Below the pieces are notes generated by a model. The model did no database searches. It had not been told where the DNA came from and saw only the letters and a list, made by a program, of their open reading frames with translations. Positions 20,643 to 28,984 of a DNA stretch of 64,000 bases are shown here, piece by piece (position 1 is the first letter of the stretch; each line of letters starts with the position of its first letter). Made by a program: the position numbers and the translations under genes. Source of the stretch: Cyanobium sp. NIES-981 (GTDB lineage Bacteria > Cyanobacteriota > Cyanobacteriia > PCC-6307 > Cyanobiaceae); contig NZ_LT578417.1 in assembly GCF_900088535.1 (NCBI RefSeq), positions 62,001 to 126,000 on the forward strand. Direction: 5' to 3'.

Positions 20643-21659
20643 ATGGCCCTGAGCTCGAATCCCGCCCCCGCCCTCCTCGAGCCGCGAGCAGGCCAGGAGC
20701 CTGCGGGTGGGCGTCCCTGCCCGGGACGGCCGCCCGCCCGGGACATGGTGTGGATCCCGGGCGGCAGCTTCACGATGGGCTCGGACCACCACTACCCGGA
20801 GGAAGCCCCGGCCCATCGCCGCGAGGTGCAGGGCTTCTGGATCGACCGGGCTCCCGTCACCAATGCCCAGTTCCGCAAGTTCGTGAAGGCCACCGGCCAT
20901 CTGACGCTGGCGGAGCGGGCCGCGAACCCGGCCGATTACCCCGAGGCGCTGCCTGAGCTGCTGGCACCCGCCTCGATCGTGTTCGTGCCGCCGGCGGGAC
21001 CGGTGGGGACTGGGGATCCCTACCGCTGGTGGCAGTACATCCTGGGGGCCAACTGGCGGCACCCGGAGGGGCCGGGTTCCTCGATCAAGGGCCGCGACCA
21101 TCACCCCGTGGTGCATGTGGCCTATGAGGATGCGCAGGCTTACGCCGTCTGGGCGGGCAAGCAGCTGCCCACGGAGGCCGAGTGGGAGTTCGCCGCCTGG
21201 GGTGGCCGCGGCGGCACGGAGTTCGTCTGGGGCTCGGAACTCCATCCCGGCGGCCGCGCCCTGGCCAACACCTTCCAGGGCGATTTCCCTCACCACAACA
21301 GCCGCCAGGATGGCTACGAGCGCACCTCGCCCGTGGGGGCCTTCCCTGCCAACGGCTACGGCCTGGTCGACATGATCGGCAACGTCTGGGAGTGGACCGA
21401 CAGCTGGTACCAGGCCCACAGCGCCGCCGGGCAGGATCCCGGCACCGCCCCGGAGGGTGGCTGTTGTGCCAGTGCCGCCCGGGAGGCCAGCATCGATCGC
21501 ACTTCCCAGCACGGCGCCATGCCCCGCAAGGTGGTGAAGGGAGGGTCGTTCCTCTGCGCTCCCAGCTACTGCCGCCGCTACCGCCCGCCGGCCCGGTTGG
21601 CCCAGGGAATTGACACCTCCACCTGCCACATGGGCTTCCGCTGCGTGGTGCGGGTCTGA
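20643..21659 (+). CDS. Formylglycine-generating enzyme (SUMF1/FGE) family protein
   Basis: A 338-residue protein from the ATG at 20643; the frame is open further upstream but would overlap the divergent MscS gene. FGE-sulfatase domain blocks are MVWIPGGSFTMGSDHHYPEE, FWIDRAPVTNAQFRKFV, HHPVVHVAYEDAQAYAVWAG, LPTEAEWEFAAWGG and GNVWEWTDSWY. The end carries GGSFLCAPSYCRRYRPPAR with Cys305 and Cys310, matching the catalytic Cys pair of genuine FGEs. That pair is missing in many SUMF1 relatives such as EgtB or regulatory homologues. It would oxidise the active-site Cys of the sulfatase at 10199. Confidence 0.9.
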   Translation: MALSSNPAPALLEPRAGQEPAGGRPCPGRPPARDMVWIPGGSFTMGSDHHYPEEAPAHRREVQGFWIDRAPVTNAQFRKFVKATGHLTLAERAANPADYPEALPELLAPASIVFVPPAGPVGTGDPYRWWQYILGANWRHPEGPGSSIKGRDHHPVVHVAYEDAQAYAVWAGKQLPTEAEWEFAAWGGRGGTEFVWGSELHPGGRALANTFQGDFPHHNSRQDGYERTSPVGAFPANGYGLVDMIGNVWEWTDSWYQAHSAAGQDPGTAPEGGCCASAAREASIDRTSQHGAMPRKVVKGGSFLCAPSYCRRYRPPARLAQGIDTSTCHMGFRCVVRV

Positions 21660-21662
21660 GCG

Positions 21663-22109
21663 ATGGCGGAACTTCCCCTGGAGACCTGGTTGGAGGTGGG
21701 AGCGAACTCCCTGCGCCTGGTGCTGGAGTTCATCTCGGTGGTGTGTGTGGGCATCGGCCTGCTGGTCTCCCTGCGCCAGGCGCTGCGGTTGCGGCTGCGG
21801 CGGCGGGTGGGATCGCGGCCCTTCAACAGCATCCGGCTCACCTTCGGCAGCTGGCTCTCGATGGCGCTGGAGTTCCAGCTCGCGGCTGACATCGTGTCGA
21901 CCACCACGGCCCCCTCCAACGCCAACCTGATCAAACTTGCCGTGGTGGCCGTGATTCGAACCTTCCTCAATGTGTTCCTGGCCAGGGAGGTGGAAGCGGA
22001 ACAGAAGTTCGAGGACGAGCACAGACAGCCCGGTGAGCGCAGCTCTGCCGGCGGTGACCTTGCCGTGGCCCGATCGTCCGGTGCTTCCCTGCCCTTCGAG
22101 GCCCAATGA
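21663..22109 (+). CDS. DUF1622 family membrane protein
   Basis: A 148-residue protein starting 3 bases after the FGE stop. It has an N-terminal membrane helix (LRLVLEFISVVCVGIGLLVSL), an amphipathic Arg-rich stretch, RLTFGSWLSMALEFQLAADI and a second hydrophobic block KLAVVAVIRTFLNVFLAREV; this pattern defines DUF1622. Function is not established. The C-terminal 35 residues are polar and disordered-looking. It overlaps the DUF202 gene by 4 bases. Confidence 0.85.
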   Translation: MAELPLETWLEVGANSLRLVLEFISVVCVGIGLLVSLRQALRLRLRRRVGSRPFNSIRLTFGSWLSMALEFQLAADIVSTTTAPSNANLIKLAVVAVIRTFLNVFLAREVEAEQKFEDEHRQPGERSSAGGDLAVARSSGASLPFEAQ

Positions 22110-22492
22110 CGAATCTCAACAACGAACTGGCCAAGGAGCGCAATCGGGCCGCCGCCGAGCGCACGATGATGGCCTGGATCCGCACCTGCCTGTCGCTGAT
22201 CAGTTTCGGCTTCGGCCTCGACAAGATCATCGGTGCCATCAACCGCAGCCGCTTCAATGACAGTTACCACGCCGGTCTGAGCGTGCGGCTGATGGCGATG
22301 GGCTTCGTGCTGATCGGCATCCTGGCGATGGCGGCCGCCACCCGGCAGCACATGCGCACCCTCAAGCTGATCCGCCGCGATGACTTTGTGTATGTCGATC
22401 AGCGCTCGATCACGGTGTTCACGGCCATTGCCCTCACGATCATCGGTGTCGTGGCCTTTGTGCTGCTGATGACCGGAAACCCTGCGCCCTGA
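22106..22492 (+). CDS. DUF202/YidH family membrane protein
   Basis: A 128-residue protein with the family opening NELAKERNRAAAERTMMAWI and three membrane helices (LSLISFGFGLDKII, LMAMGFVLIGILAMAAAT, VFTAIALTIIGVVAFVLLM). The Arg-Thr-x-x-Ala-x-x-Arg motif typical of DUF202 is present. Its role is unknown; homologues are often grouped with small membrane proteins such as DUF1622, as here. Confidence 0.88.
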   Translation: MTNLNNELAKERNRAAAERTMMAWIRTCLSLISFGFGLDKIIGAINRSRFNDSYHAGLSVRLMAMGFVLIGILAMAAATRQHMRTLKLIRRDDFVYVDQRSITVFTAIALTIIGVVAFVLLMTGNPAP

Positions 22493-22498
22493 TTCTCC

Positions 22499-23383
22499 AT
22501 GCCACCCTTCGCTGCGCTGCTGGCCACGGCCACCATCGTCACGTTGATGTTCAGCCTCGGGCTGGGCCTGAAGGATTACCCCTTCGTGCTGCTGCGGGAT
22601 CGCCCTGCGTTCCTGTGGCGCGTAGTGCTGGCCACCTGTTTCCTCGTGCCCCTGGCGGGTCTGGCGCTGGTGCTTCTGCCCCTGCAGGGCCTGCTCTCCA
22701 GGCCCGCCTGGGTCGCCATCGCCCTGATGCTGGCGTGCCCCAGCGCCCCGCTCATTCTGTTCCGGGTGCGCAGCAGTGGCGGCACGGCTGAGCTGGCCGC
22801 GCGTCTGCAGATCCCGGCGGCGCTGCTGGCGATCGTGTCCATTCCCCTGCTGGCGATGCTGTTCAAGGCCTGTGCTGGCCTCAATGGCTGGGAGGTGAAC
22901 GGTTGGGACATCCGGCCCCTCGCCGTGGCCGCCCAGGTGCTGAAGGTGCAGGTGCTGCCGGTGCTGGCCGGGGTGCTGCTGGCCCAGTGGCGTCCGGCGC
23001 TCGCTCGCCGCTGCAGTGCCGTGCTCGGCAAGCTGGCCACCCTGATGCTGGCGGCCCTGCTGATGGCCTTGCTGGTGATGAGCGCCGCCAAGCTCTGGCC
23101 CTTCCTGCAGCAGAACCTTCTGGGTCTGGCGGCAATGGCCCTGTTGAGCGTGCTCAGCCTGGCGATCGGGTATGCCCTGGCGGGCCGGGATCCCCTGGAG
23201 CGCCGCACGGTGGGGCTGGTGACCGGCATGCGGAACACCGGCCTGGCCGCCGACCTGGCCCTGACCCATGCGCCTTCGAACGTGCTGCCGGAGTTGATTC
23301 CGGGCATCCTCGGCTATGTGCTGATCACCGTGATCGTGTCCACGATGTTTCTGAGCTGGCAGAAGCGGGAACTCGCCACCTGA
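22499..23383 (+). CDS. Bile acid:Na+ symporter (SBF)-family transporter
   Basis: A 294-residue membrane protein with nine or ten hydrophobic helices. Family traits include the N-terminal FSLGLGLKDYPFVL, the internal broken helix LMLACPSAPLILFRVRSSGG, and GLVTGMRNTGLAADLALTH, which corresponds to the second crossover helix. The sodium-binding residues cannot be assigned confidently by eye. It likely carries an organic anion with Na+. It begins 6 bases after the DUF202 stop, last gene of a four-gene forward run headed by FGE. Confidence 0.82.
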   Translation: MPPFAALLATATIVTLMFSLGLGLKDYPFVLLRDRPAFLWRVVLATCFLVPLAGLALVLLPLQGLLSRPAWVAIALMLACPSAPLILFRVRSSGGTAELAARLQIPAALLAIVSIPLLAMLFKACAGLNGWEVNGWDIRPLAVAAQVLKVQVLPVLAGVLLAQWRPALARRCSAVLGKLATLMLAALLMALLVMSAAKLWPFLQQNLLGLAAMALLSVLSLAIGYALAGRDPLERRTVGLVTGMRNTGLAADLALTHAPSNVLPELIPGILGYVLITVIVSTMFLSWQKRELAT

Positions 23384-23412
23384 GCTGAGTCACACACCCC
23401 TGCCGGACGGAT

Positions 23413-24342
23413 CTAGAAGAAGAACTTCACCCCCATCTCGATGCCGTTCTGATAGCTGCGGATGCCACTGGGCCGCTCATCCCCGTTGCTGTAGTTGATG
23501 CCCAGATAGCGCCAGGAGAGGGTGAGATCGGTGTTGTTGCCCACGGCATAGCCCAGGCCGAGCTGGGCGTTGCCGGTGTAGTCCTTGGCGCCGGAGAAGT
23601 CAAAGCCGCCGATGTCGGCCCGGGCGAAGGCCCTCAGCTTGGGCGAGAGGAAGTAGGTCGCCTGGAAGCCGAGCAGCGGTTGGGCCCACGTGCGGTCGAA
23701 GGAGCGCTCGGCCCCAAACCGTCGATCCCCATCGATTTCCCGGATCTCCGCCTTCACATCGAGCCCCATGTCGAGCACGCGCACGCCCGCGTAGGGGATG
23801 AAGCTGTAGTGGCCAGGCTCGGCGATCGCCGTCTCGGGTGACCCGAAGCGATAGCGCAGGGCGAAGTCATAGATCCCCTGCGTGGTGGACACCTCGGTAT
23901 TGCCGGTGAAGAGGCCGCGCCGCCCGGTCCTGCCGTCCTCGCCCGAGAGCTTCACATAGCTCAGATCGGTGAGCAGGCCCCAGCGCCCCTTCTCCACGCT
24001 GCCCCGGACGTAGGTGAGCCAGTCGAGGGCGGAGAGGATGTCGCCGAGATCGGCATCCACGTCGCTTTCGAAGCCGCGGATCGTCACGCTGCCGGTGGCG
24101 CGCAGCGGCGCAAATCCGTAGATCTCCACCGTTCCGCGCCAGTCCTTGGTCGGATCGGGGCTGGCGGCCTGGGGGTCTTCCGTGGGATCCTCTGCCGGCG
24201 CCGGCGCGGCCATCGGGTCCGGGGTGCTGGTCTCCTCGGTCATGGGGATAGCCTCCTCGGCCCTGACCGGACCGGCACCCACGCCGAACCAGGCGATCGG
24301 CAGGTTGATCAGGGCCAGGGCGGCCAGGCTGGATGAACGCAT
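23413..24342 (-). CDS. Outer-membrane beta-barrel protein
   Basis: A 309-residue protein with a signal peptide (MRSSSLAALALINLPIAWFG ... VRA). An acidic Pro/Thr-rich linker of about 35 residues follows, then alternating polar/hydrophobic beta strands (WRGTVEIYGFAPLRATGSVT, LRAFARADIGGFDFSGAKDY). It ends in GVKFFF, an aromatic C-terminus recognised by the BAM machinery. Length suits an eight- to twelve-stranded barrel. No substrate can be read from sequence. It converges with the SBF-family gene. Confidence 0.82.
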   Translation of the reverse strand: MRSSSLAALALINLPIAWFGVGAGPVRAEEAIPMTEETSTPDPMAAPAPAEDPTEDPQAASPDPTKDWRGTVEIYGFAPLRATGSVTIRGFESDVDADLGDILSALDWLTYVRGSVEKGRWGLLTDLSYVKLSGEDGRTGRRGLFTGNTEVSTTQGIYDFALRYRFGSPETAIAEPGHYSFIPYAGVRVLDMGLDVKAEIREIDGDRRFGAERSFDRTWAQPLLGFQATYFLSPKLRAFARADIGGFDFSGAKDYTGNAQLGLGYAVGNNTDLTLSWRYLGINYSNGDERPSGIRSYQNGIEMGVKFFF

Positions 24343-24459: not shown

Positions 24460-24489
24460 AAAAAACCTGCCGCCGTGGAGGGCGGCAGG
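24460..24489 (-). terminator. Rho-independent terminator downstream of the duplicated cassette
   Basis: Read on the minus strand, CCTGCCGCC (24481-24489), a 6-base loop and GGCGGCAGG (24466-24474) form a perfect 9-bp GC stem followed by six T residues (24460-24465). It lies 31 bases past the stop of the gene at 24521, at the distal end of the duplicated operon. Confidence 0.9.
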
Positions 24490-24520
24490 TACAAGGTTCG
24501 GCCGTTTCAGGCCGCGACGC

Positions 24521-25615
24521 TCAGACCGAGCCGTAGGCCACCTGGCAGGCCGCATTCAGCAGCTCCGCCTCCGAAGCGCTGTTGGGCGTGCTGCCGTTGA
24601 GCGTGCCCCGGTCGCAGTCGGCCTCCATGGTGATCGAGCTGTCACCCGAGATCGCTTCGAACGACACGGACTGATCACCCACCGGCGCCACCGTTCCATA
24701 GAGGAGTTGGTAGTCGCTGTTCGGAACCGCGATGTAGGTGGTGTGGCTGCTCACGGCGTTGTCCACCGCCGAGTTGATGATGGCGGCTGTGGCCAGGGTG
24801 CTGACCCCCCAGGCCGCGGCACTCGCACCCCACCAACCCCAGCTGGGGCTCGACCAGCCGCCGTACCAGCCGTAATTCCAGGGCCTTGCATAGCCCCAGC
24901 CCGGCCGGGCCCAGCCGGGATAGCGGTCCCAGCGGTCGTTCCAGCGGTCGTTGCGCCGATCCCAGCGGTCATCCCAGCGGTCTGAACGGCGGTCATAGCG
25001 CTCATCGCGCCTGTCCTGGTTGCGGCTGACCCTCTCATCACGCCGGTCCTGGCGGTTGTCAAAACGGTCGTCCCGGTTGCGGTCGTCGCGCCGGTTGTCC
25101 CGGTTCCCGGCCCGGTCGTCCCGCCGGTTCTTGGCGGTGTCCCGGTTGCGATCCCGGTTGCCGTCGCGCTGGTTCCTGTTCTTGTTGGAGGCGGTGCGGT
25201 TGCGGTCACCACTGCCTGCCTTGCGGTTCTTGCTGCCGGATCCGCTGGCCGATTTGCTGTTGAGCGAGGGGTTGCCGCTCGAGCGGGCGTTCTTCTTGTA
25301 GCCGCCCGAGGGTTTCTTGGACCCCCGGCTGAGCCCTGAACTGCTGCTCTTGAAGCCAGTGCTGCCTTTGGAGGAACGTTTGGCGGAACTCTTGCGACTG
25401 CCGCCGCCGCTGCGTTTGCCGGAGCTCTTGCGGCCCCCACCCTTCTTGCCGCCGCCACCCTTTTTGGCCAGCAGTTCGGTCTGGGTGGTGGCTGAACTGG
25501 TGTCCAGGCTTGTGCCGGATTGGAATGCAGCCTCGGCTGGAATACCGGGGAGTGCCAGGGCCCCCGCCAGCAGCAGGCCGAACAGGGAGCGGGTTCGGGA
25601 TCGGGTTCGGTGCAT
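24521..25615 (-). CDS. Exported Arg/Asp-rich, Trp-rich protein, lysine-rich copy (cassette copy 2)
   Basis: A 364-residue protein from the ATG at 25615, which overlaps the upstream stop (TGATG); a GTG one codon earlier is possible. Order: signal peptide (about residues 1-30); a Gly/Ser/Lys-rich basic linker with 19 Lys; Arg/Asp/Asn tracts with recurring QDRRDER-like units; an aromatic segment (RYPGWARPGWGYARPWNYGW); one membrane-like or beta segment (WGVSTLATAAIINSAV); and a C-terminal domain with two Cys ending AACQVAYGSV. I recognise no family. The composition suggests a surface or matrix protein. The paralogue is at 26296. Confidence 0.82.
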   Translation of the reverse strand: MHRTRSRTRSLFGLLLAGALALPGIPAEAAFQSGTSLDTSSATTQTELLAKKGGGGKKGGGRKSSGKRSGGGSRKSSAKRSSKGSTGFKSSSSGLSRGSKKPSGGYKKNARSSGNPSLNSKSASGSGSKNRKAGSGDRNRTASNKNRNQRDGNRDRNRDTAKNRRDDRAGNRDNRRDDRNRDDRFDNRQDRRDERVSRNQDRRDERYDRRSDRWDDRWDRRNDRWNDRWDRYPGWARPGWGYARPWNYGWYGGWSSPSWGWWGASAAAWGVSTLATAAIINSAVDNAVSSHTTYIAVPNSDYQLLYGTVAPVGDQSVSFEAISGDSSITMEADCDRGTLNGSTPNSASEAELLNAACQVAYGSV

Positions 25616-26160
25616 CACTTCACCCCCTCGCAGCCCTCGTCCCAGCAGGTGATGATCACCCGGCCGTCATCGCCGAACTTCACGCCCACCAGGTCACGAC
25701 CCGCCGAGGCATCCGGACGGTCTTCCCGCACGCTGTTGAGGTAATTGGGGTTCACCACACAGAGCTCACGGTCGTTGAAGCAGATCGTGTTGGTGGAGAA
25801 GCGGGCCCCTGCGGAGCTGAGCCTCACCCAGTCCTTGCTGCCCGGGGCCATCGCGCTCATGGTGAGCGGGGCGTCGGACACGCGGATCGAGAAGACCGAC
25901 TTGCCCAGGGTGTGGACGTAGGTGGTGACGCCTGCCTCCTCATCGTCCATGGCTTTCACCACGCAGGGCTGGGGCTGGCCGCCCTTGACGCTGCAGGTGG
26001 TTTCCAGCGTGTAGAGCTCCGTGGTGGCTGCCCGGACCGGGCTGACTGCCAAGGTGGACGCGAGGGCGGTGACCAGGGCGCAGGCGGCGCTGGCGTACAG
26101 CAAGGGTCGGACCAGGCGGTTCTGATCACTGGGAGGACAGCACATGGTGCGGCTCGGCAT
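25615..26160 (-). CDS. Small secreted cysteine-paired protein (cassette copy 2)
   Basis: A 181-residue protein with an Ala-rich signal peptide cleaved about residue 44 (SPVRA/ATTELY). The 137-residue mature part has six Cys in close pairs (TTCSVKGGQPQPCVV, NTICFNDRELCVV, ITCWDEGCEGVK), so three disulfides are plausible. It differs from its paralogue at 27399 by only two residues in the mature region, though the signal peptides are very different. Family unknown. It is translationally coupled to the Arg/Asp-rich partner. Confidence 0.85.
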   Translation of the reverse strand: MPSRTMCCPPSDQNRLVRPLLYASAACALVTALASTLAVSPVRAATTELYTLETTCSVKGGQPQPCVVKAMDDEEAGVTTYVHTLGKSVFSIRVSDAPLTMSAMAPGSKDWVRLSSAGARFSTNTICFNDRELCVVNPNYLNSVREDRPDASAGRDLVGVKFGDDGRVIITCWDEGCEGVK

Positions 26161-26165
26161 AACGA

Positions 26166-26192
26166 GTCAATCCCTAACGGAAGGCGGGACAC
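26166..26192 (-). promoter_or_regulatory. 27-bp leader element of cassette copy 2
   Basis: On the minus strand it contains CCCGCCTTCCGTTAGGGATT and ends 5 bases before the start codon of the gene at 26160. It is identical over 27 bases to 27947-27973. TTAGGGATTGA may include a ribosome-binding site. Confidence 0.65.
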
Positions 26193-26295
26193 CTCCTCAG
26201 CGTGGACACAGCTCCTGGCGCTGTCAGCAACCTGATGCAGTTCTGCCATGGGGCCCTGGACTGACAAGTCCACGGCCCTGAGGGGAGAGGGCAAC

Positions 26296-27399
26296 TCACA
26301 CGGAGCCGAACGCCACCTGGCAGGCCGCGTTCAGCAGCTCGGCCTCCGCCGCCGTGTCGGGCCTGCGGCCGTTGAGCGTGCCGCTGTTGCAGTCGGCCTG
26401 CATCGTGACCGCCTCGTCGTTGAAGATGGCCTCGAACGACACCGACTGGGTTCCGACGGGCGACACCGTGCCATAGAGCAGGCGGTAGTCGCTGTTCGGC
26501 ACCACGATGTAGGTGGTGTGGGTGCTCACGGCGCTGTTCACGGCCGCATTGATCACGGCTGCCGTGGCCAGGGTCGTGATTCCCCAGGCGGCCGCGCTTG
26601 GCCCCCACCAGCCCCAGCGCGGGGTGGACCAGCCGCCGTACCAGCCGTAGCTCCAGGGTCTGGCGTAGCCCCAGCCCGGACGGGCCCAGCCGGGATAGCG
26701 ATCCCAGCGGTCATTCCAGCGGTCGTTGCGCCGATCCCAGCGGTCATCCATTCGGTCACCGCGGCGGTCGAAGCGCTCGTCGCGCCGGTCCTGGTTGCGG
26801 TCCACGCGCTCGTCGCGCCGGTCCTGGCGGTTCTCGAAGCGGTCGTCGCGGCTGCCGGTGCGGTTGTCCCGCCGCTCGTCGCGGGTGCCTGTGCGGTTGT
26901 CACGGCGGTTGCTGGCGGCCTCGCGGTTGCGGTCGCGCTGGCCGCTGCTGAGGCTGGAGCCGCTCCGATTGGAGGTGGTGCGGTTGCGGTCGCCGCTGCC
27001 CGCCGCACGGTTCCGGTTGCCGGAGCCGCTGGGCGTCTGCCGGTTCAGCGACGGGCTGCCGCTCGAGCGGGCGTTCGTCTGGAAACCGCCGCTGGGCCGG
27101 TTGGAGCCCCGGTTGAGGCCGGAGCCACTGCTCCTGAAGCCGCTGCTGCCACTCGAGGAGCGGCCGCTGCTCTGGCGGCTGCCGCCGCCCCTGCTGCCGG
27201 AACTCCTGCCGCCACCGCCTCTGCTGCCCCCGCCGCCGCCGCCTCTGCGGGCCAGCAGTTCGGTGTGGGTGGTGGCTGAAGGGGTTGGTGCATCGGTGGC
27301 GGTCTGGAAGGCCGCCTCGGCCGGCACTCCCGGCAGCGCCAGGGCCCCCGCCAGCAGCAGGCCGAACAGGGAGCGGGTTCGGGATGGGGTTCGGTGCAT
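26296..27399 (-). CDS. Exported Arg/Asp-rich, Trp-rich protein, lysine-free copy (cassette copy 1)
   Basis: A 367-residue protein from the ATG at 27399. Architecture is as in its paralogue at 24521: signal peptide, Gly/Ser/Arg linker, Arg/Asp/Asn tracts (DRRDERVDRNQDRRDERFDR), aromatic segment, and conserved C-terminal domain ending AACQVAFGSV. It contains no lysine at all, whereas the other copy has 19; the positions are filled by Arg, Gln, Ser or Gly. The first residues (HRTPSRTRSLFGLLLAGALA) and C-terminal 120 residues match the paralogue closely. Function unknown, probably cell-surface or extracellular. Confidence 0.82.
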   Translation of the reverse strand: MHRTPSRTRSLFGLLLAGALALPGVPAEAAFQTATDAPTPSATTHTELLARRGGGGGGSRGGGGRSSGSRGGGSRQSSGRSSSGSSGFRSSGSGLNRGSNRPSGGFQTNARSSGSPSLNRQTPSGSGNRNRAAGSGDRNRTTSNRSGSSLSSGQRDRNREAASNRRDNRTGTRDERRDNRTGSRDDRFENRQDRRDERVDRNQDRRDERFDRRGDRMDDRWDRRNDRWNDRWDRYPGWARPGWGYARPWSYGWYGGWSTPRWGWWGPSAAAWGITTLATAAVINAAVNSAVSTHTTYIVVPNSDYRLLYGTVSPVGTQSVSFEAIFNDEAVTMQADCNSGTLNGRRPDTAAEAELLNAACQVAFGSV

Positions 27400-27941
27400 C
27401 ACTTCACCCCCTCGCAGCCCTCGTCCCAGCAGGTGATGATCACGCGGCCGTCATCGCCGAACTTCACGCCCACCAGGTCGCGACCCGCCGAGGCATCGGG
27501 GCGGTCTTCCCGCACGCTGTTGAGGTAGTTGGGGTTCACGACGCAGAGCTCACGGTCGTTGAAGCAGATCGTGTTGGTGGAGAAGCGGGCCCCTGCGGAG
27601 CTGAGCCTCACCCAGTCCTTGCTGCCCGGGGCCATCGCGCTCATGGTGAGCGGGGCGTCAGTGACCCGGATCGAGAAGACCGACTTGCCCAGGGTGTGGA
27701 CGTAGGTCGTGACGCCCGCCTCGGCGTCGTCCATGGCTTTCACCACGCAGGGCTGGGGCTGGCCGCCCTTGACGCTGCAGGTGGTTTCGAGCGTGTACAG
27801 CTCGGTGGTGGCGGCCCGGGCGGGGCTGATCAGCAGGGAGGAGGCGAGGGCCGTCGCCAGGGCGCAGGCGGCGGCGAACAGGACCGGACGGCTCGGGTGG
27901 TTCTGGTCAGCGGGATGGCAGCGCGTGGTGCGGCTCGGCAT
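27399..27941 (-). CDS. Small secreted cysteine-paired protein (cassette copy 1)
   Basis: A 180-residue protein with signal peptide (about residues 1-43, ending SPARA) and a 137-residue mature domain with six Cys. Compared with the copy at 25615, only Ala/Glu and Thr/Ser differences occur in the mature part. It is the promoter-proximal gene of the whole cassette array, divergent from the IdiB-type regulator across a spacer of about 190 bases with Fur-like boxes. It ends in the overlap TGATG with the partner gene. Confidence 0.85.
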   Translation of the reverse strand: MPSRTTRCHPADQNHPSRPVLFAAACALATALASSLLISPARAATTELYTLETTCSVKGGQPQPCVVKAMDDAEAGVTTYVHTLGKSVFSIRVTDAPLTMSAMAPGSKDWVRLSSAGARFSTNTICFNDRELCVVNPNYLNSVREDRPDASAGRDLVGVKFGDDGRVIITCWDEGCEGVK

Positions 27942-27946
27942 GGAGG

Positions 27947-27973
27947 GTCAATCCCTAACGGAAGGCGGGACAC
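27947..27973 (-). promoter_or_regulatory. 27-bp leader element of cassette copy 1
   Basis: Identical to 26166-26192 and also ends 5 bases before its start codon. Exact conservation right outside the coding region, where the adjoining signal-peptide sequence has diverged, suggests a functional leader or translation-initiation element. Confidence 0.65.
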
Positions 27974-28062
27974 TCGCTCAGCCTGAACGCGGCTGGATGG
28001 GCTGTCAGCGGGCTGTCACCGAGTGTGTGCAGGGCGGCGCCCTCGCAGCAGGCACTCGCTAT

Positions 28063-28116
28063 TGAGAATCGCTTGCAAAAGTCAGCGTTGTTGTTTAGGT
28101 TGCGAGTCATTCGCAA
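28063..28116. promoter_or_regulatory. Two Fur-like boxes between the cassette and the IdiB-type gene
   Basis: TGAGAATCGCTTGCA at 28063-28077 partly fits the 7-1-7 Fur box (TGATAATNATTATCA). TTGCGA (28100-28105) and TCGCAA (28111-28116) form a perfect inverted repeat with 5-base spacer and fit the same scheme less well. Both lie 20-75 bases upstream of the start at 28135. Their place in an iron-uptake locus supports iron regulation; the matches alone are modest. Confidence 0.45.
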
Positions 28117-28134: not shown

Positions 28135-28731
28135 ATGACCTTCCGCCTGCTTCCGGATGCCGCCCTCAGCGCTGTTCGCCTTCCAGCCGGCCATTCCGTG
28201 TTGCTGGACCCCTCCCGCCGCGGTGACGGCGGCTGCATCGAGGTGCTCGACGGCGTCGCCCGCGTGTACTGCCCCTGCGAGGAAGCCGAGGGGATGACCC
28301 TGGCCTTCCTGCAGCCCGGGGATCAGCTGCAGACCAGCCGCCTCTGCAGTGACGGGGTCTGCGTCGAAGCACTCACCCCGCTCTGTTTCAGCACGTCCGC
28401 CGAGGTGGAGGCGACGCCCGGCCTCGACCCGGTGAACGAATGGACCCTGCAGCTGCTTCGCATCCGGCACCTCGGCAGCGCCGAGCAGCGGCTGCACGCC
28501 CTGCTGGCCCTGCTGGTGCGGCGCCTGGGTCGCCGCTGCGGTGCCTGGTGTGATCTGCCGTTCCGCCTCACCCACGAACGCATCGGCGAACTGATCGGTA
28601 CCACCCGCGTCACCACCACCCGGCTGATGTCGCGGATCCGCCAGGCCCAGCTGATCGAGGTGCCCGCCGGCGAGCCGGGCCTGCGCCTGGCCCCCGATCT
28701 GGTGGAGTCGGCTCCGCTGGCCAGCGCCTGA
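28135..28731 (+). CDS. Crp/Fnr-family regulator, IdiB-like (iron-starvation activator)
   Basis: A 198-residue protein. The N-terminal half folds like a cyclic-nucleotide-type beta barrel (SAVRLPAGHSVLLDPSR, LDGVARVYCPCEEAEGMTLA). The C-terminal winged helix has LTHERIGELIGTTRVTTTRL, matching Crp-family DNA-reading helices. Five Cys residues in the sensor half, including CPC, could bind a metal or cluster. In Synechococcus elongatus the Crp-type IdiB beside idiA activates iron-starvation genes; here the FutA/IdiA gene is 1.8 kb away, with a small protein and futB between. Assignment is by context plus family. Confidence 0.8.
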   Translation: MTFRLLPDAALSAVRLPAGHSVLLDPSRRGDGGCIEVLDGVARVYCPCEEAEGMTLAFLQPGDQLQTSRLCSDGVCVEALTPLCFSTSAEVEATPGLDPVNEWTLQLLRIRHLGSAEQRLHALLALLVRRLGRRCGAWCDLPFRLTHERIGELIGTTRVTTTRLMSRIRQAQLIEVPAGEPGLRLAPDLVESAPLASA

Positions 28732-28843
28732 GCCGGGGGCTGCACCTGCGCCCGCCCCGTGGGCACGCCCCAGCGAACCCCGCGAATTGCCACCCGGTTC
28801 TCTCTCCACTCCCTGTCCTTCCTTCTCCCTTCCTCCACGCACC

Positions 28844-28984
28844 ATGGCCCAGCCGATCGGTCCCGCCAACGACCAGCCCGATCCCGCCGCCCGCCGCGGC
28901 CCTGCCCAGTCCAAGAAGAAGGGCTGCAAGAAGAACAAGTGCTCCCACTGGAAAGGGGGCAAGTGCCGTTGCGGCAGGGAGTGA
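28844..28984 (+). CDS. Small Cys/Lys-rich protein (46 residues)
   Basis: The ATG at 28844 gives 46 residues: a Pro/Asp/Ala half, then a compact basic half, SKKKGCKKNKCSHWKGGKCR followed by CGRE. Four Cys and one His in 18 residues (C-x4-C-x-H-x5-C-x-C) could bind a metal ion. It ends at base 28984, directly before the convergent futB stop at 28985. I do not know the family. Its position between the IdiB-type regulator and futB suggests an iron-related role, which is inference. Confidence 0.65.
   Translation: MAQPIGPANDQPDPAARRGPAQSKKKGCKKNKCSHWKGGKCRCGRE

Follow-up and report, generated by a model that had tools for sequence, protein, structure and literature searches.

A tandemly duplicated, coupled gene pair for two exported proteins without a recognised family in Cyanobium sp. 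NIES-981 and its occurrence among Cyanobiaceae

Results

We describe a clean two-gene unit, here called A-B, that occurs in over a third of the sampled Cyanobiaceae genomes and that, judging from the sequence searches given below, is a widespread orphan module with neither protein in a known family. In Cyanobium sp. NIES-981 the module is present as a tandem duplication. With a probability of roughly 0.4, we consider A and B to be a two-protein unit of the cell envelope or surface, whose members are translated from one mRNA in a fixed ratio. Of the proteins that picocyanobacteria export, the greater part is uncharacterised (54%; PMC4949707), and the module offers a concrete test of how these organisms shape their surface and attach.

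Two cassettes in tandem

The window, that is the whole analysed stretch of 64,000 nucleotides, carries four genes in the order A1-B1-A2-B2 on its minus strand (24521-27941), which form two A-B cassettes in tandem. A1 (27399..27941) encodes a secreted six-cysteine protein of 180 aa, and its stop overlaps the ATG start of B1 (26296..27399), which encodes a secreted, basic, low-complexity protein with a C-terminal domain at 26299-26700. The second cassette consists of A2 (25615..26160; 181 aa) and B2 (24521..25615). In both cassettes the A stop and the B start overlap as TGATG. Alignment of the upstream regions showed that about 40 nt immediately 5' of each A are nearly identical; this leader, also detected as direct repeat D4, lies at 27942..27985 for A1 and at about 26161-26204 for A2. 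An intrinsic terminator with a 10-bp stem and a T run (24465..24490, minus strand) follows B2. It is the only good one on this strand, and none is present between the cassettes. An earlier sequence-only reading had proposed just such an arrangement (duplicated two-gene cassettes, TGATG coupling, a shared leader and a single terminator), and the present analysis confirmed all of these points. A search against Rfam returned no match.

The cassette repeats are spaced 1775-1784 nt apart and are 76-93% identical. A1 and A2 share 91% identity over the whole protein and 99% over the mature part (91-98% at the nucleotide level outside the leader), while the values for B1 and B2 are 76% for protein and 70-87% for nucleotides. 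Synonymous differences are fewer between the A copies than between the B copies (window 25512-25811 and 27296-27595), a pattern which suggests that A has undergone gene conversion or is under strong constraint. When cassette number was surveyed in Cyanobiaceae, the pair was found to co-occur widely and the tandem form to be rare: only 2 of the 110 tabulated genomes (Cyanobium sp. NIES-981 and G072) had A copies no more than 3 kb apart. A neighbour genome, G099, has a single cassette at the same place.

Pairing and distribution

The counts given here refer to samples of genomes, with matches accepted at an E-value threshold of 0.001. Of 300 Cyanobiaceae genomes, 111 contained A and at least 121 contained the B domain; retention of both proteins and their invariant cysteines in more than 100 genomes goes beyond what chance would give. 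Among 292 genomes sampled across the phylum, A was confined to Cyanobiaceae and B extended to one more family. Homologues of A were absent from the plasmids and viral contigs searched, as were those of B from the plasmids searched.

Altogether 134 places with A were tabulated, three of them at contig ends (G288, G096 and G171). B was listed directly downstream in at least 127 of the 134, and four others (G023, G194, G238 and G259) proved to be paired on inspection; wherever the flanks of A were readable, B thus followed directly (131/131). In the intact pairs that were checked, stop and start overlap as TGATG or ATGA; a few rows of the overlap table represent fragments, alternative starts or broken frames. 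Pairwise distances of A and B were correlated (Spearman 0.60; highest value among permutations 0.29) and nearest neighbours agreed in many cases, although much of this correlation could come from shared ancestry alone. From the fixed pairing, the overlap and the correlated distances taken together, it follows that A-B is a real, co-inherited and coupled unit.

The pairing is obligate for A and not for B, since B has solo paralogues; the former claim that both partners are obligately paired thus stands in one direction only. Two further B copies without A were found in the Cyanobium genome itself (G000:C1:1220048 and 680201), and solo B genes were also among the matches listed for other genomes (for example L109 and L110). 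Like paired B, the solo paralogues possess the same Trp-rich motif and C-terminal domain after a variable low-complexity stretch. Unlike paired B, they have no upstream A, contain other repeats (NRP, Lys-rich) and yield a less basic mature protein.

Protein A

Both A and B begin with a Sec-type leader, recognised by eye from a hydrophobic core and an AxA motif, and six cysteines, all in the mature part, are invariant in the family alignment of A. This agrees with the description of A as an exported six-cysteine protein that the sequence-only reading had given. The structure model of A is confident (pLDDT 93) and dominated by strands. Residues C12/C22 and C83/C90 face each other in predicted hairpins, and C128/C133 are near each other in sequence; from this placement, three local disulfides may be inferred.

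The view that neither protein belongs to a recognised family was upheld. Scans of the proteins against Pfam and NCBIfam and a Pfam scan of the alignments gave no curated match for A or for B, comparison with sequence profiles of the PDB gave nothing for either, and the A and B profiles show no similarity to each other. Hydrophobin_2 and BRANT gave weak hits below the cut-off that were not repeated among members. Structure comparison of the A model with the PDB (Foldseek, VIA-align) returned only a middling mixture of PH/EVH1-, Ran-binding- and OspA-like sheets (Z not above 6.5), and comparison with viral structure models returned no significant match. To judge from the model, the fold of A has no clear counterpart.

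Protein B and its possible resemblance to protein E

B is a protein of about 365 aa in which the leader is followed by a Gly/Ser/Lys/Arg-rich part, an Arg/Asp/Asn-rich part, a Trp-rich motif and the C-terminal domain. The low-complexity part (Gly/Ser/Arg/Asp/Asn) is disordered and the protein is basic overall: mature paired B has a median pI of 11.0, and its terminal domain one near 4.05. Two cysteines of this domain are invariant in 60 sequences.

The model of the B domain (pLDDT 88.6) consists of three main strands and a C-terminal helix. The four best PDB entries were all Haemophilus influenzae protein E (Z 5.8, 5.7, 4.8 and 4.1; the next entry 3.4), and the best alignment covered 75 residues at an rmsd of 3.2, a weak match with Z below 8. 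At such a score the likeness between the modelled fold and protein E may reflect a common arrangement. As modelled, the B domain would share with protein E (PF16747, Adhesin_E) an antiparallel sheet followed by a C-terminal helix, with one cysteine where a strand ends and another within the helix. In protein E a disulfide links the main helix with the end of beta4 (PMC6652776), and in the model Cys104 (strand end) and Cys127 (C-terminal helix) of B, both of them invariant, are placed in equivalent elements. In contrast, the B domain has three predicted strands of at least four residues and protein E six, and only B has the long basic disordered region, the Trp-rich motif and the partner A.

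The Adhesin_E HMM matched none of 60 B-domain members at E 0.1 and nothing in the whole Cyanobium genome, while it did find matches in 24 other cyanobacterial genomes. Foldseek with the B domain gave no significant match, and hhalign against Adhesin_E members was not significant (probability 1.1, P 0.049, with just 21 columns around the C-terminal cysteine). Since the sequences give no evidence that the two share an ancestor, we call the B domain protein-E-like and do not regard it as a member of the protein E family.

Genomic neighbourhood

Two kinds of neighbours recur around A-B, in loci whose genes were called by a simple codon model: i) an island downstream of the module with genes for an outer-membrane protein, an SBF transporter, DUF202, DUF1622, FGE and a sulfatase, present in many genomes, and ii) futA/futB-like transporter genes. 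The island accompanies A-B no less often than the transporter genes do and is also found in loci without iron genes. Some loci have neither, so that no neighbour defines the function of the module, and no anchor or secretion gene was constantly linked to A-B in the loci surveyed.

As for i), about 15 of some 38 long loci, representing at least five genera, have a sulfatase, FGE or outer-membrane protein gene no more than 10 kb from A. Together with the strongly basic character of B, this would be expected if A-B acted on a sulfated or acidic extracellular polysaccharide, with the Arg-rich B binding it and the sulfatase, FGE and outer-membrane protein processing or importing it. However, the island is missing from many loci, its linkage could be explained by clade history, and no carbohydrate-binding family was found in A or B; we therefore regard this possibility as unlikely. 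In the window, genes for FGE-sulfatase, DUF1622, DUF202, the SBF transporter and the outer-membrane protein occupy 20646-24342. The island sulfatase of relatives is mostly 86-90% identical across genera, a degree of conservation well above that of A or B.

As for ii), a Crp/Fnr-family regulator gene (28135..28731, plus strand; PF13545, E 6.7e-10) is divergent from A1 and is followed by permease and solute-binding genes, which by our own reading would be of the Fut/Idi type. A small Lys/Cys-rich ORF of 65 aa, with the C-terminal end KKGCKKNKCSHWKGGKCRCGRE, is located between the regulator and permease genes (28787-28984). Such an arrangement might mean that A-B assists in acquiring iron or another metal and that the Crp-like regulator controls it jointly with the ABC transporter genes. 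The futA/futB-like genes adjoin A-B in about 10 of the roughly 38 long loci, that of Cyanobium sp. NIES-981 included, and the upstream region of A1 is common to the regulator gene and two palindromes, TTGAGAATCGCTTGCAA (28062..28078) and TTGCGAGTCATTCGCAA (28100..28116). These sites are 38 nt apart within 28062-28116, and no other position of the 3.02-Mb genome matches TTGMRA-N5-TYKCAA. However, the iron neighbourhood is limited to part of the family, the transporter genes are missing from most other contexts, and the solute-binding protein and the permease match no iron-specific NCBIfam model. The suggested proximity to an iron-acquisition locus applies to about ten of the long loci, and a role of the module in metal acquisition appears unlikely.

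Sister loci have retained the palindromes next to their Crp-like regulator gene. In G023 the pair of sites remains with the regulator while A-B is 5.6 kb away, which weakens their interpretation as elements of A-B. In G140 and G192 sites persist 5' of A, with no regulator gene detected. Outside this kind of neighbourhood they are absent upstream of A, and they are absent at the ABC genes as well. Since the sites follow the regulator in G023, though they also accompany A in G140 and G192, they are probably the regulator's own operators, and control of A-B by them is possible. Two sites per genome are too few for a global Fur box, and the classical 19-bp Fur box, sought upstream of A, scored no better there than in shuffled sequences.

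Possible function of the A-B unit

A surface structure or a binding pair, as suggested by the sequence-only reading, is plausible, and the invariant cysteines of A and B would fit folding outside the cytoplasm. A model of such an envelope unit can be outlined as follows. Translational coupling on one mRNA would allow A and B to be made in fixed proportion. The basic disordered stalk and the Trp-rich segment of B might hold it in or on the envelope, where it would expose the acidic C-terminal domain, in which one disulfide would clasp a small sheet and a helix, as in the adhesin protein E. Its partner A, compact, beta-rich and fastened by three local disulfides, would bind B as a co-adhesin, cap or folding partner, and through the unit a cell could then attach to matrix, to particles or to its neighbours. 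Tandem duplication would raise the dosage, leaving the B stalk free to diversify while A is kept nearly fixed. Since B is found without A in other loci, A cannot be needed for every B. Taken further, A-B might constitute a two-component adhesion or matrix system at the surface of picocyanobacteria, outside any described family, with a protein-E-like B head on a stalk and A as its obligate co-translated partner, found mostly in larger Cyanobiaceae genomes and missing from streamlined ones; this narrower proposal is tentative and, taken as a whole, somewhat unlikely.

The division of roles could also be less equal, with A dedicated to folding B in the periplasm, as chaperone or partner, and B alone the working product. 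B occurs without A and A never without B, and A precedes B in the coupled order, as this would predict; yet solo B proteins with the same Trp-rich and C-terminal domains manage without A, and A resembles no chaperone or other protein clearly in its fold, so that we find the idea decidedly doubtful. That A and B work in competition between cells, one as an exported effector and the other as its cognate protein, is very improbable, for although both are small, secreted, disulfide-rich, co-expressed and duplicated, they show no toxin family or linked secretion apparatus, leaders are present on both partners, whole genera keep A-B stably and A changes slowly.

Concerning the solo B genes, those of L063, L065 and L109 are situated near a cytochrome c6-like gene, an association seen in Cyanobium relatives as well as in G335, a genome from a different family.
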